This document shows positions 26,064 through 31,573 of a DNA stretch of 64,000 nt, piece by piece. The notes beneath the pieces were generated by a model. It ran no database searches, was not told where the DNA came from, and was given only the letters and a program-made list of their open reading frames with translations. Both the position numbers and the translations under genes were made by a program. Positions within the stretch are counted from its first letter, which is position 1. Each line of letters starts with the position of its first letter. The DNA lies in assembly GCA_019637585.1 (NCBI GenBank), contig JAHBVL010000005.1, positions 1 through 64,000 of the forward strand. Direction: 5' to 3'. This stretch comes from Thermomicrobiales bacterium (lineage in GTDB: Bacteria; Chloroflexota; Chloroflexia; Thermomicrobiales; UBA6265).

Positions 26064-27533
26064 TCAGCGATCAGCGTCGTCTTCCGGCAGGACGCGGCCG
26101 GAGAGTCCGGCGGCCCGCTGGACTCGTCTCAGCGCTCCGTCCCAATCGAACGATTGGTGAACGGCGGCGAGATTGGCGAACGGCGGCGACTGGGCGAACA
26201 ACTGAAACGTCAGCCGGTGCCCGGCGTAGTCCGAATTAATCAGGTCGCGGCCGAATGCCAGGAGTTTGCGGCGATCGGTGGCGTCCCATGCCTCATTGAT
26301 TGTGTAGAACTTCTCCAGCCACGGCGCTGTCTCCGGGAGATCGAAGGTCGCCAGATCGGGTGTGACGGCAAGCTGACCGCCGCACAGCTCGCGGGCGATA
26401 TGCATCATCTGCGGCAGCTGTGAACTGGCCAGCACCCGCCCTGTGTAGAGGAGCGACTGGTTGGGCATCAGCAGACCGCCGGGGCTGATCTCCGCTTGAT
26501 CGATCGCCGCGGTCAGGTGGGCGTTGATCCCCTCCCGGTAGACCGCCAGCGCCGCAAGCTTTTCCTGGACCGCCTGTTGCCGGTCGAGACCGGTCTGGCG
26601 GACATTGAACAGCGCGGTGCCGATCAGCAGATCGGCGACATGCATGGTTCGCTGGATGAATGGGAAAGCGCTGTAGCGATAGAGGGTCGCCCGAATGTAG
26701 GCGGCGGCCTGCGTGTGACGGTAGAAGAGGACGTTTTCCCAGGGAATCTCGACATCGTCGAACACGACGAGGGTGTCGATCTCATCGAACCGGTTGGCCA
26801 GCGGATAGTCCTCGATCGGGCGCCGGCCCGCGAACCCTGTCCGACAGATGTGCTTCAGACCGGGGTGCCCCATGTCCACGACGAACCCGATCGCATAGTC
26901 CGAGAGTTCGTCATCGCCCCAGTTGGCGATCGTCGGTTTGACAAAAGCCTGATTGGCGTATGCGGCAGCCGTTTCGTACTTCGCGCCGCGAACCACGATA
27001 CCCCGGTTCGTTTCCCGGACGACATGCAAAAGCATGTCAGGATCCTGATCCTGCGGCCGCCTGGAACGGTCACCTTTCGGATCGGTGTTGGCCGACACAT
27101 GAAACGGGTCGTGGTGGACGGCATGAGCCACGTGACGCCGGATGTTCTCCGAGAACGCCGGATCGACCTGATTGAGCAACGATTGCCCATCGTAGAGCGA
27201 CCACATCTCGCCGACGGTTTCGTCCCCTATCCGGGTGACCACACCACCAATGTCATCCAGGATGGCATCGACGGCAGCCCGTTTGGCCCGCCAGTCGTCC
27301 CGGGTATGCGGCAATTTGGGCCCGATGGCATTGACCTCCCCGATCGTCGGATCGAGATAGGTCATGACGCTGCTCAGTTTCGGATCGTGCGCCATGTCGT
27401 AGATGTGCGCACGAACATCGACGATCGGCTTGAACATCGGATGGGAAGGCACGTCGCGCACCCGCTCGCCGTCAATGTAGACCTCCCGGCCGTCGCGAAT
27501 GCTCTCTCGATACTCCTCGCCCGTTCGGATCAT
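26064..27533 (-). CDS. hpaB: 4-hydroxyphenylacetate 3-monooxygenase family oxygenase (HpaB type)
   Basis: This flavin-dependent oxygenase (489 aa) takes reduced flavin from a partner reductase and adds oxygen to a phenolic ring. The family is shown by RTGEEYRESIRDGREVYIDG at the start, the FAD-binding part FHVSANTDPKGDRSRRPQDQ, the loop GLKHICRTGFAGRRP and the C-terminal ARELCGGQLAVTPDL. Length is normal. ATG 27533 overlaps the stop of the reductase gene by 4 bp, so they are one operon. The exact phenol cannot be told; the family also includes chlorophenol and pyoluteorin-type enzymes. A longer in-frame extension to 28235 is a shadow of the reductase gene. Confidence 0.88.
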   Translation of the reverse strand: MIRTGEEYRESIRDGREVYIDGERVRDVPSHPMFKPIVDVRAHIYDMAHDPKLSSVMTYLDPTIGEVNAIGPKLPHTRDDWRAKRAAVDAILDDIGGVVTRIGDETVGEMWSLYDGQSLLNQVDPAFSENIRRHVAHAVHHDPFHVSANTDPKGDRSRRPQDQDPDMLLHVVRETNRGIVVRGAKYETAAAYANQAFVKPTIANWGDDELSDYAIGFVVDMGHPGLKHICRTGFAGRRPIEDYPLANRFDEIDTLVVFDDVEIPWENVLFYRHTQAAAYIRATLYRYSAFPFIQRTMHVADLLIGTALFNVRQTGLDRQQAVQEKLAALAVYREGINAHLTAAIDQAEISPGGLLMPNQSLLYTGRVLASSQLPQMMHIARELCGGQLAVTPDLATFDLPETAPWLEKFYTINEAWDATDRRKLLAFGRDLINSDYAGHRLTFQLFAQSPPFANLAAVHQSFDWDGALRRVQRAAGLSGRVLPEDDADR

Positions 27534-28135
27534 AGATCGAACTCCTCCGCCGGTGGCTCGTCCCAGATCGGCGCGGGCATGGTGGCCAGATGTCCCGCGA
27601 TGTCTGGCAAATGGAGGAGCTCGGCAAATGACCGGCGGCCATAAACCAGCGGCATGCCGGCGCCATTCCCCGCATGTTCGACCCGGCCAATGAAGATGGA
27701 ATGCGTGCCGATCTGATGCGTCGCCACCACATGACAGTCGAGCCAGGCAACGGCGCCAGAGAGCATCGGAACGCCGCTCGGGGCGGCGGTCCAGCTCGAT
27801 GTGGAGAAGTCGTATGGCTCGCCGTCGCTGGGCCGGCCGGCGAAGGTCAATGCCGTGGTCCGCTGGTCTGCCCGTAGCGCGGAGATGACAAACCGGAAAC
27901 TCTCCCGGATGGCCGATTCGATCGGCGTTTTTCGGTTGACGCAGATCAGGACCGTCGGTGGATCGGCGGTCACTGATGTCACGGCGCTGACCGTCAATCC
28001 AAGTCTGCCGCCCGGTCCGTCGGTCGTGGCGATCCACACGCTGGAGGCCACCCGGCTCATTGCTTCCACGAACTCGTGGCGGACATCGTTGTGCTGAAGG
28101 GTCACTGGGGATTCCTGATTCTGGGCGACAGCCAA
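27530..28135 (-). CDS. hpaC: Flavin reductase, HpaC type
   Basis: This flavin reductase (201 aa) supplies reduced flavin to the oxygenase encoded next. The split-barrel domain is visible: FVEAMSRVASSVWIATT, GLTVSAVTSVTADPPTVLIC, VNRKTPIESAIRESFRFVIS and the ending IFIGRVEHAGNG followed by PLVYGRRSF. The stop overlaps the oxygenase start. Together they form a two-component monooxygenase. Start ATG 28135 is acceptable; no strong Shine-Dalgarno is seen. Confidence 0.88.
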   Translation of the reverse strand: MAVAQNQESPVTLQHNDVRHEFVEAMSRVASSVWIATTDGPGGRLGLTVSAVTSVTADPPTVLICVNRKTPIESAIRESFRFVISALRADQRTTALTFAGRPSDGEPYDFSTSSWTAAPSGVPMLSGAVAWLDCHVVATHQIGTHSIFIGRVEHAGNGAGMPLVYGRRSFAELLHLPDIAGHLATMPAPIWDEPPAEEFDL

Positions 28136-28149
28136 TCGACAGGGCAGAG

Positions 28150-28986
28150 TCAGGACTCACCCTGGCCGGAGCGGAACGCATCGATCTCTGCTTTGCGGAT
28201 CGTCCCGACCGCGTCGAGCGATTCCCGCCACGCATCAGTGTATGACTTCAGCGTCTCGATGATCGTTTCGGCGACGGCGATGTCCCGGAACCACTTGCGG
28301 TCGGCGGGGATGACATACCAGGGCGCGTGCTTCGTCGAGCACTTCGCCAGGGCGTCCTCGTACGCCGCCTGATAGGCGTTCCAGGACTCTCGTTCCTTCC
28401 AGTCCCCTACCGACAGTTTCCACGCCTTCTCCACCTCTTCTTCCCGGGCCAGGAGACGTTCCTCCTGCTCGTCCTTGCTGATGTGGAGAAAGAACTTGAG
28501 GATGATCGTGCCGCTGTCGGCGAGGAGCTTCTCGAACGCATTGATATGGTCGTACCGGGCGCGCCACTCCTTGACGGGAACCAGCTCCTTGACGCGGACG
28601 ACCAGGACATCCTCGTAGTGTGAACGATTGAAAATCGCCAGCTGGCCCTTGCGAGGTGTGACGGCATGCACGCGCCAGAGGAAATCGTGCGCCAGCTCGA
28701 GCTCCGTCGGCACCTTGAATGGCCAGGACTTCACGCCCAATGGGTCGACGGAGCGGAAGACACTCTTGATCGCGCCATCCTTGCCGGCCGTGTCCATACC
28801 CTGGAACACCACCAGGAGCGATTGCTCTCCCGCGGCATACAGGAGGTCCTGAAGCTCGTTGATCTCTCCAGAGAGCTCGACCATCCGCGCTTTGCCTTCT
28901 TCCTTGGTCATCCCGCCGTCGGCTGAGGTGGGGATCGACGACAAATCGACCCTGCTCGCGGGCTTGATTCTGATTGCGTGACTCAT
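28150..28986 (-). CDS. ppk2: Polyphosphate kinase 2 family protein
   Basis: This kinase (278 aa) moves phosphate between polyphosphate and nucleotides. Walker A is GMDTAGKDGAI, Walker B lies in IFNRSHYEDVLVVRV, and the lid has REEEVEKAWKLSVGDWKERE. The N-terminal tail (RIKPASRVDLSSIPT) resembles that of the family. ATG 28986 gives the family-like MSHAIRIKP start; a longer in-frame version from 29058 would overlap the EamA gene. Whether it uses AMP, ADP or GDP is not determined. It follows the EamA transporter gene with a gap of 34 bp. Confidence 0.9.
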   Translation of the reverse strand: MSHAIRIKPASRVDLSSIPTSADGGMTKEEGKARMVELSGEINELQDLLYAAGEQSLLVVFQGMDTAGKDGAIKSVFRSVDPLGVKSWPFKVPTELELAHDFLWRVHAVTPRKGQLAIFNRSHYEDVLVVRVKELVPVKEWRARYDHINAFEKLLADSGTIILKFFLHISKDEQEERLLAREEEVEKAWKLSVGDWKERESWNAYQAAYEDALAKCSTKHAPWYVIPADRKWFRDIAVAETIIETLKSYTDAWRESLDAVGTIRKAEIDAFRSGQGES

Positions 28987-29020
28987 GCCGTTGTGTTGCT
29001 CCTTCGTGTTGGATGCCATC

Positions 29021-29935
29021 TTACCGAACGCCGGCTGACCTTCGCGCCAGTGCGACACCCACGAGGGCGAATCCTGCTCCGACCAGTTGATACACCCCGA
29101 TATCGTCCCTCAGAAAGATCACGGAAAACAGCCCGGTGAAGACGGGAATGAGAAAGAGGTAAGGAACCGTGCGCCCCGCGGTCGAGCGGCCGATCGCCCA
29201 GCTCCACAGGGTGTAGGCGACGAACATCGACAGCACGGCCGCATAGAGCACGGCAGTCCAGCCGCGCCACTGCATTCCCTGCCAGTCCTGATCGGTAAGC
29301 GCACCAGCGGTGAATGGCGCGATGGCGACGAACCCGATCAGCGCCGACCAGGCGGTGGTCAGCGGCGCGCCGTTGCGGCGGACGAGGTCCTGCGTTGTCA
29401 GTCCGTATATGGCGAAGCAGACCGCCGCCAGGAGATTCAACAGGTCGCCGGAAGCTGGCAAGCCGTGCAGCAGCTTCTCTCCAACAAAGATCACGATTCC
29501 GACAAAAGCCACGGCGACACCGAGCCATTGGCGCGGGAAGACCCGCTCGATCCCCAAAGCCGACGCGAAGAGGAGGGTGAAGATGGGCGCCGTGGCAATG
29601 AGGATGGCAGCGGAGAACGCCGATGTGCGCGAGAGACCCATGACGAAGAGGAGGTTGTACGCCCCGAAACCCGACACACCCGCGACAACGAAACGGCCAT
29701 AGTCGCTCCGGTCAACGCGCAACGGTTGGCGCCGGATCGCGAGCAAGGCAAAGCTGAGGGTCGAGACAATCAGCAGGCGCAGGAAGACATAGGTGCGGAC
29801 GGTGACGTCCTCTTCCAGAGCCGACTTCGTCAGAACGTTGTTGCCCGCCCAGATGACGATGACCAGCAGCATCACCAGGTCGGCGATGTCGACTGAAGAT
29901 CGTCTGGATTGGGATACCGGGTTCTGGAGGGTCAA
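29021..29935 (-). CDS. EamA/DMT-family transporter
   Basis: This protein (304 aa) has ten hydrophobic segments in two EamA repeats, consistent with a drug/metabolite exporter. The first repeat opens ADLVMLLVIVIWAGNNVLTK; the second begins near residue 155 (GDLLNLLAAVCFAIYGL). It probably exports amino acids or small metabolites. The C-terminus is a short basic tail (RRSAGVR). The direction of transport and substrate are not evident. Confidence 0.87.
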   Translation of the reverse strand: MTLQNPVSQSRRSSVDIADLVMLLVIVIWAGNNVLTKSALEEDVTVRTYVFLRLLIVSTLSFALLAIRRQPLRVDRSDYGRFVVAGVSGFGAYNLLFVMGLSRTSAFSAAILIATAPIFTLLFASALGIERVFPRQWLGVAVAFVGIVIFVGEKLLHGLPASGDLLNLLAAVCFAIYGLTTQDLVRRNGAPLTTAWSALIGFVAIAPFTAGALTDQDWQGMQWRGWTAVLYAAVLSMFVAYTLWSWAIGRSTAGRTVPYLFLIPVFTGLFSVIFLRDDIGVYQLVGAGFALVGVALARRSAGVR

Positions 29936-30002: not shown

Positions 30003-30803
30003 TCAGACGACTGGCAAGGTCGCTCCCTCTATCGAGAGGAGCCGTTCCTTGATATCCAGTCCACCCGTGTAACCGCCGAGCGAGTTGTCTGAGCGGACGA
30101 CGCGATGACAGGGCACGATAACCGGCACGGGATTGCGCCCGAGCGCGTTGCCGACGGCACGCGTGGCGTTTGGCTTGCCAATCGAGCGAGCGATATCGCG
30201 ATAGGTCAACAGACGGCCAAACGGCACCTCGGACGTAGCGGTGAGCACCGCTTTGGTGAACGGGGTCACACCGGTCAGATCGACCTGAAGATCGAAAACA
30301 TGGCGCCGGCCACTGAAATACTCCCGTAGCTGGGCGGAGGCGCTTTCGATCGCTTGTTGGTCGGCCACAGCCTCGAATCCACGCCGGTCGAGAAGAGCGA
30401 GAAACTTGTCCGTTCCAGACCGGCCAAAGGAGATCTCGCAGATACCGTCGTCACTGACGGCAATCAACAGATCTCCGAGGGGACTGGGCATCGACCCGTA
30501 GCGGGCCACCTTCTTGTGGACTCGCAGGCGAGGCGCAGTGGGAATGTCCGCTCCGGCGCTGGCGTCGCCGAGATGCTCGAGGAGATCGTCGATCCGCTCG
30601 AACCACTGGAGCTCATTTTTGCAGTAGTTGCACTGCTCGGCATGGCTGTCGATCCACGCCTGGTCGGCGGCGGCCATATCGCCGATGACATAGCCGGGCA
30701 TCGCCTCCAGCGCGATATCACACGGATCGACGTCCGGCTCGGCTGCTTTGCGAGCGAGATGTTCCTCGCGTGGAGTGTGGGTGGGTTCGTATGGTGCCGT
30801 CAT
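30003..30803 (-). CDS. Fusion of zinc-binding anti-sigma domain and O6-alkylguanine-DNA alkyltransferase
   Basis: This protein (266 aa) joins two modules. Residues about 25-90 form a ZAS-type anti-sigma domain: C28, H54, C58 and C61 give C-x25-H-x3-C-x2-C, the spacing of RsrA-like zinc anti-sigma factors (HAEQCNYC, then a helix ERIDDLLEHLG). Residues about 98-266 are a complete methylated-DNA-protein alkyltransferase: GSMPSPLGDLLIAVSDDG, the DNA-binding TYRDIARSIGKPNATRAVG, the active site PCHRV with Cys232, and GGYTGGLDIKERLL. The gene lies 16 bp downstream of an ECF sigma gene. I infer that alkyl transfer to Cys232 alters the hold on the sigma factor. ATG 30803 follows CCGGAGACAGCACG; a longer in-frame start at 30890 is inside the sigma gene. 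Confidence 0.85.
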   Translation of the reverse strand: MTAPYEPTHTPREEHLARKAAEPDVDPCDIALEAMPGYVIGDMAAADQAWIDSHAEQCNYCKNELQWFERIDDLLEHLGDASAGADIPTAPRLRVHKKVARYGSMPSPLGDLLIAVSDDGICEISFGRSGTDKFLALLDRRGFEAVADQQAIESASAQLREYFSGRRHVFDLQVDLTGVTPFTKAVLTATSEVPFGRLLTYRDIARSIGKPNATRAVGNALGRNPVPVIVPCHRVVRSDNSLGGYTGGLDIKERLLSIEGATLPVV

Positions 30804-30819
30804 CGTGCTGTCTCCGGAT

Positions 30820-31332
30820 CTATACCCGGTCTCCGAAGCAGGCCCGCAACTTGCGGAGCGCTTCGTATACGTTTGCTCTTGCCGCTTCATCAGAGCATTT
30901 CAGGACTTCGCCAATCTGGCGATAATCGAACTCCTGATACTTCCTGAGAACCAGTGCCACCCGTTGCTTCTCCGGAAGAGTCTGAATGAATCGTTCGACT
31001 TCGACCAGCAAGTCTCGCGCATCGAGCGATGCCGGCTGGTCCTCCTGAACGGCGGCGAGCTCGCCGTCAGCGGCCACATCGAGCGGACGTTCGCGATTCG
31101 CCTTCCGCTTGGCGCTCAGGAACGTGTTCGTCGCGATCCTGTAAAGCCATGCCCGGTAATTGGCAGACGCGTCCAGCCGGTCGAATGCCTTGTATGCCTT
31201 CAGGAAGGTGTCCTGATAGAGATCGTCGGCATCGGCCTGATTCCGCGTGAGATGCAGCGCATAGCGATAAATCTCACGTTGATGCATATCGACAAGCGTG
31301 TCGAATGACATGAGCGTCGCCGAATCAGTCAT
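30820..31332 (-). CDS. ECF-type RNA polymerase sigma factor
   Basis: This sigma factor (170 aa) has region 2 (FDTLVDMHQREIYRYALHLT, DADDLYQDTFLKAYKAFDRL, YRAWLYRIATNTFLSAKRK) and region 4 (LPEKQRVALVLRKYQEFDYR, QIGEVLKCSDEAARANVYEA). It directs RNA polymerase to a small regulon, presumably including this operon. ATG 31332 is preceded by GAGGGAGCACCGCCG; an in-frame ATG pair at 31389 and 31383 lacks such support. Its direct partner is the anti-sigma/alkyltransferase fusion encoded 16 bp downstream, which suggests a stimulus of DNA alkylation or redox stress. A clear -35/-10 pair of ECF type upstream was not found by eye. Confidence 0.88.
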   Translation of the reverse strand: MTDSATLMSFDTLVDMHQREIYRYALHLTRNQADADDLYQDTFLKAYKAFDRLDASANYRAWLYRIATNTFLSAKRKANRERPLDVAADGELAAVQEDQPASLDARDLLVEVERFIQTLPEKQRVALVLRKYQEFDYRQIGEVLKCSDEAARANVYEALRKLRACFGDRV

Positions 31333-31573
31333 CGGCGGTGCTCCCTCTGTCTGGAGGGTGTGTCGTTCGATCGTTTGCGTCATGATCATCCGAATGGTGC
31401 TGGCAACAAGAAAGCGCTCCGATCATTGAGCTCCTCCTGTTTGCCGCTCGCATCAATGAAACGCTCGACTGCACGCGGTGTGAGATGCGACCGGCAACGA
31501 CATGACAATCTGGCTCGAGCGGGGCGCCAGAGAGAGAGAGTAGAACGTGTGTTCTGTGGTGTCAAGAGGGATG

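Follow-up and report, generated by a model that had tools for sequence, protein, structure and literature searches.

An extracytoplasmic function (ECF) sigma factor and a protein joining a putative zinc-binding anti-sigma (ZAS) module to an O6-alkylguanine-DNA alkyltransferase (MGMT) are encoded next to each other in the window analyzed here, a stretch of 64,000 nucleotides from a Thermomicrobiales bacterium of the Chloroflexota (assembly GCA_019637585.1, contig JAHBVL010000005.1, positions 1 to 64,000 of the forward strand). The best explanation of the whole, to which we assign a probability of about 45%, is an autoregulated loop that would replenish a suicide repair enzyme, with the fusion protein (ZAS-MGMT) holding the sigma factor. 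Judged from sequence conservation, it is very likely that ZAS-MGMT binds the sigma factor and that the operon is autoregulated. That the sigma factor would be released mainly through alkylation of Cys232 is held with less confidence, at somewhat under even odds.

A sigma factor gene followed by an anti-sigma/alkyltransferase fusion gene

The upstream gene product is an ECF sigma factor by its domain content, with Pfam matches to Sigma70_r2 (E 5.9e-20) and Sigma70_r4_2 (E 1.4e-11) covering regions 2 and 4 only, and its nearest solved relatives are SigH of Mycobacterium tuberculosis and SigR of Streptomyces. Its stop codon is separated from the ATG of the fusion gene by a 16 bp gap. The original prediction had described this arrangement of an ECF sigma gene ahead of an in-frame ZAS-MGMT fusion, and its coordinates, its residues (C28, H54, C58, C61 and Cys232) and their spacing were all found to be right.

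Judged by its motif and catalytic residues, the C-terminal half of the fusion is a complete MGMT. The PCHR motif occupies residues 231-234, with Cys232 as the acceptor, and the window protein matches the Pfam families DNA_binding_1 (E 1.2e-31) and Methyltransf_1N (E 1.9e-11). A profile of this half compared with the PDB gave OGT 4bhb as its best match (E 8e-42), and an AlphaFold2 model of the fusion has a predicted local distance difference test score (pLDDT) >90 across most of the alkyltransferase part.

For the N-terminal half, the zf-HC2 score of the window protein alone (E 0.014) is under the Pfam cut-off, and the zinc module was therefore judged by conservation. An alignment of 24 homologous fusions (A1) shows identical C-x25-H-x3-C-x2-C spacing in every sequence, and the four zinc ligands together with Y201, R215, N224, C232, H233, R234 and E259 are invariant in 24/24. 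Given that the window protein is matched by these sequences at only about 37-54% identity, the joint invariance of zinc ligands and catalytic residues argues that both halves of the fusion have been selected together. The zf-HC2 family is matched in 20 of the 24 homologous fusions (best E 1.6e-9), and the best PDB matches of the N-terminal profile are the anti-sigma factors DdvA (1e-4), RsiW (1.8e-4) and chain 3hug_B (4e-4). AlphaFold2 draws helices for this part at a pLDDT of only about 43-55. By motif spacing and by its match to anti-sigma families, which is weak for the window protein alone, the N-terminal module is assigned as a putative ZAS domain.

Distribution of the fusion

The full fusion was found in 20 of 32 genomes of the same family, and a class-wide search added four genomes from another family of the same order, for a total of 24. 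An ECF sigma homologue lies directly upstream in all 24, at a gap of -13 to +90 bp. Recurrence in 24 independent genomes rules out a frameshift at the fusion, which the original prediction had named as a possible artefact, and also an assembly artefact.

The carriers include a cultured organism, the type strain of Sphaerobacter thermophilus (G372), whose genome of 3,993,764 bp comprises two replicons (PMC3035262). These measure 2,741,033 and 1,252,731 bases, and the operon is located at about 2,426,209-2,427,470 of the larger one. A contig scan of genomes with a single fusion protein returned alkyltransferase-domain relatives only and no further fusions, so that the distribution outside the Chloroflexota is barely sampled; among plasmid records, none reaches 80% coverage of the fusion. 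Fusion to an anti-sigma module is what Thermomicrobiales-type genomes show, and the zinc module is not general.

A sigma clade paired with alkyltransferase genes

With the sigma protein as query, 24 of the 25 best matches other than its own in 400 genomes of the phylum directly precede an MGMT gene. Most of these MGMTs lack the zinc module; in such plain pairs the sigma and MGMT genes usually overlap by 4 bp, the N-terminus of the MGMT is short, and the position directly downstream showed no separate anti-sigma gene. Plain pairs are spread over many families of the Chloroflexota and are also present in one genome of the Acidobacteriota (L070) and two of the Solirubrobacterales, in the Actinomycetota (L079 and L086). 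The wider association is therefore one of sigma factor and alkyltransferase. As the alkyltransferase is the constant partner of the sigma factor across the plain pairs, these favor either sensing through the alkyltransferase or a role that does not depend on the zinc module.

In the sigma tree, 52 of 53 paired sigma factors group together, apart from the other ECF sigma factors sampled (support 93/92). The only paired sigma outside this clade, L069, is a weak sigma match and was treated as a separate case; when it is included, a single clade is rejected (p 0.028). With the sigma gene found ahead of 24/24 fusions, the tree answers in the affirmative the question, raised by the original prediction, of whether an ECF gene from a single clade precedes the fusion in every case. 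Paired and solo MGMTs are largely separate in the alkyltransferase tree; the few exceptions include some that lie at the end of a contig or sit on a long branch. The AdaA domain (PF02805) was detected neither in the fusion protein by Pfam nor in the window's own genome, and this, together with the separation of paired from solo MGMTs, rules out an ordinary Ada or Ogt protein.

The proposal of an anti-sigma/alkyltransferase system is thus borne out in its architecture and its ECF partner, and does not extend to a generally present zinc module, which most relatives lack. Homologues lacking the zinc residues and also the sigma gene had been named as evidence against it; in the plain pairs the zinc residues are absent and the sigma gene is present.

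Several plain pairs have features of their own. In family f47 (L175 and L178) the sigma nests with the sigma factors of zinc fusions and the MGMT does not group with fusion MGMTs; neither MGMT has the zinc module, the PF02870 part of the L175 MGMT is weak, and a sugar-isomerase-like gene follows the L178 pair. The MGMT N-terminus of L045 (G224) carries a cysteine and a CxxC with no histidine at the expected place, and may be a decayed or alternative anti-sigma module. In family f37 the MGMT N-termini share a conserved EARERLxxRAxREGL stretch, and a YCII/DGPF-type gene follows four of the pairs (L035, L042, L046 and L051). DGPF proteins also partner other ECF groups, and two types of ECF target may be combined in these f37 operons.

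A conserved promoter motif upstream of the operon

Nearly every fusion locus carries, before the sigma gene, the sequence [AG]TCTCACA followed after 15 bases by CGTT or a close variant. The -35 element is present in 22 of 23 regions upstream of fusion operons (18 exact and 4 near-exact). The broader pattern [CT]TCAC[AG]N14-17[CG]GTT was found in 16/23 upstream regions of fusions, compared with a mean of 0.04 in shuffled sequences, and in 13/30 upstream regions of plain pairs, compared with a shuffled mean of 0.06. Across the 32 family genomes, ATCTCACA-N15-CGTT gave 27 matches, about half of which are the sigma operon itself, and the reversed control gave 0. The Sphaerobacter genome has the f2-type motif once only, before this operon.

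A looser pattern gave 10 matches in the window's own genome, compared with 2 in the control; among those with plausible genes behind them are an MFS transporter, an ABC ATPase and a DinB-family gene, and none of the HhH-GPD genes of this genome is among the matches. The conserved motif is probably an autoregulatory ECF promoter with a small predicted regulon. Together with the sigma clade, it supports the earlier view that the function of this locus is linked to alkyltransferase control.

In two genera, ATCTCACA-N15-CGTT is followed by MFS transporters of the DHA2 type that closely resemble each other (G023:C132:898, locus L224, and G000:C2:41253, locus L213). The fusion gene was not found in G023, possibly through incompleteness of that genome.

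A proposed replenishment loop and its alternatives

In the proposed loop, the N-terminal zinc module of unused fusion protein would keep the ECF sigma factor inactive in the cytoplasm. Two triggers for release can be envisaged: alkyl transfer to Cys232 would spend the fusion protein and so free the sigma factor, or alkylating or thiol-reactive agents would attack the zinc thiolates with the same outcome. The freed sigma factor would then transcribe its own operon from TCTCACA-N15-CGTT, yielding more sigma factor and more anti-sigma/alkyltransferase, and the loop would end once unused ZAS-MGMT recaptures the sigma factor. In OGT proteins, alkylation lowers stability by 17-35 degrees, and degradation follows (PMC5751216, PMC10779285). 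We tentatively suggest, at odds well below even, that the system may act as a consumption gauge, in which each spent alkyltransferase would free one sigma factor and thereby give stoichiometric replacement, with zinc-free MGMT doing likewise in plain pairs.

Three observations weigh against the replenishment loop. Most relatives in the sigma clade are paired with a zinc-free MGMT and have no anti-sigma gene directly downstream, so that the sigma factor can evidently be under control, or do no harm, without a zinc module. The motif targets in the window's own genome are the MFS, ABC ATPase and DinB-family genes and not an AlkA-type gene, and a drug or electrophile response therefore fits as well as DNA alkylation. 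Finally, a full Ada domain is present in 7 of 21 family genomes with a fusion (the 21 include one whose fusion gene is truncated at the end of its contig), so the fusion does not simply replace Ada, and replacement has no statistical support (Fisher p 0.28).

The alternative that survives best, possible although we would not expect it, is an RsrA-like switch with a passenger, in which the zinc cysteines would sense electrophiles and free the sigma factor while the alkyltransferase would be a co-made effector only. The invariant zinc motif in all fusions is as this alternative would have it, and the nearest solved sigma factors, SigH and SigR, are partners of redox-sensing ZAS factors. The ZAS protein RsrA holds SigR and frees it upon thiol oxidation, being inactivated by disulphide formation, and its cysteines are also modified by benzoquinone, which forms adducts on them (PMC5288332). 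In Corynebacterium glutamicum the SigH regulon, which is under the anti-sigma factor RshA, includes a putative MGMT, cg0186 (PMC3489674), and the motif genes of the window's own genome include an MFS transporter of a kind that recurs behind the motif in G023. Against this stands the finding that plain pairs of the same clade keep the MGMT without the zinc module, so that it is the alkyltransferase, and not the thiol sensor, that constantly accompanies this sigma factor.

Control of the sigma factor throughout the clade by the MGMT domain itself, or by the short helix preceding it, with the zinc module a Thermomicrobiales-type addition, is unlikely. It draws on the plain pairs, whose genes commonly overlap by 4 bp in families throughout the Chloroflexota, whose short MGMT N-termini recur in the Acidobacteriota and Solirubrobacterales, and which have no anti-sigma gene of their own directly downstream. 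The shared N-terminal stretch of family f37 would also suit it, as would the L045 N-terminus, with cysteines and no histidine, if this is a decayed or alternative module. In plain pairs, however, a regulator located elsewhere could hold the sigma factor, or transcription alone could provide the control. Simple co-regulation, in which an unrelated signal would activate the sigma factor, MGMT would be the first gene of the regulon and the zinc module would have lost its anti-sigma function, accounts for adjacency and co-transcription and for a single-sequence zf-HC2 score under the cut-off, but is very improbable, as a module without function would not have retained all four zinc ligands at fixed spacing in 24 sequences at this level of divergence.

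Neighboring genes and DNA repair context

The features of the locus are collected in Table 1. Downstream of the fusion, an EamA gene follows after 67 bp on the same strand, its end is overlapped by a PPK2 gene, and these are followed in the window by genes for a flavin reductase and an HpaB-type monooxygenase. EamA or PPK2 homologues adjoin the fusion in several family genomes, with PPK2 near it in L236, L238, L241 and L242. The order HpaB, flavin reductase, PPK2, EamA (window 26064-29935) is kept behind the fusion in G024 (L236), and the set is perhaps a detoxification cluster.

Table 1. Features of the sigma factor/ZAS-MGMT locus, in window coordinates
Feature	Coordinates	Strand	Basis or remark
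ECF sigma factor gene	31332..30820	minus	170 aa; alternative in-frame ATG at 31389
Putative ZAS anti-sigma / O6-alkylguanine-DNA alkyltransferase fusion, open reading frame	30803..30003	minus	266 aa; ATG at 30803
Zinc anti-sigma motif C28-x25-H54-x3-C58-x2-C61 inside fusion	30621..30722	minus	spacing conservation and profile match
Alkyltransferase domain of fusion, acceptor Cys232 in PCHR	30024..30503	minus	PDB profile match, AlphaFold2
Candidate autoregulatory ECF promoter TCTCACA-N15-CGTT, upstream of sigma gene	31485..31460	minus	motif conservation
EamA/DMT transporter	29021..29935	minus	PF00892 E 1.8e-47; possible operon member
Polyphosphate kinase 2 (PPK2)	28150..29058	minus	PF03976 E 7e-71; conserved neighbor

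In the plain pair L041 the next gene encodes an HhH-GPD DNA glycosylase, a neighbor that fits alkylation repair. AlkA as a general neighbor is ruled out, as this is the only plain pair followed by such a glycosylase.

Comparison with known systems

The closest parallels in gene order are SigR/RsrA of Streptomyces and SigH/RshA of Corynebacterium and Mycobacterium, in which, as here, an ECF sigma factor is followed by a soluble ZAS protein with H-x3-C-x2-C. Those operons are autoregulated, as is predicted for the fusion operon. RsrA and RshA are small and have no enzyme attached, unlike the fusion, in which the alkyltransferase forms the C-terminal domain. The C. glutamicum MGMT is likewise a member of the SigH regulon and not an anti-sigma factor, whereas here the MGMT is fused to the putative anti-sigma module. 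Class I anti-sigma domains (ASDI) offer a precedent for the layout of the fusion, an N-terminal ASDI/ZAS with a further C-terminal domain, and the text of the paper classifying them (PMC7406223) does not mention methyltransferase.

No description of a system combining an anti-sigma or sigma factor with alkyltransferase, methylated-DNA, Ada or alkylation was found in the literature searched, although a listed ECF group with MGMT neighbors may exist, and the word sigma is absent from a 2023 review of alkyltransferases. An alkyltransferase as the domain attached to an ASDI/ZAS module appears to be new within that literature.

Ada of Escherichia coli likewise combines an alkyltransferase with a zinc-cysteine module and induces its own gene, and in both systems self-alkylation is a plausible signal. 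Ada, however, is a DNA-binding activator with AdaA, whereas the fusion protein would partner a sigma factor and work by release from inhibition. Known ECF/ZAS control would here be joined to a known suicide enzyme, and the combination would be an independent counterpart of Ada. If true, the problem that Ada solves would here be answered in a second, independent way, with DNA alkylation sensed via the repair protein but through sigma release. As Sphaerobacter thermophilus carries the fusion, the regulon can be tested in a cultured organism. In total, this work describes a sigma clade that is tied to alkyltransferase genes, has its own recognizable promoter motif and is found in at least three phyla.
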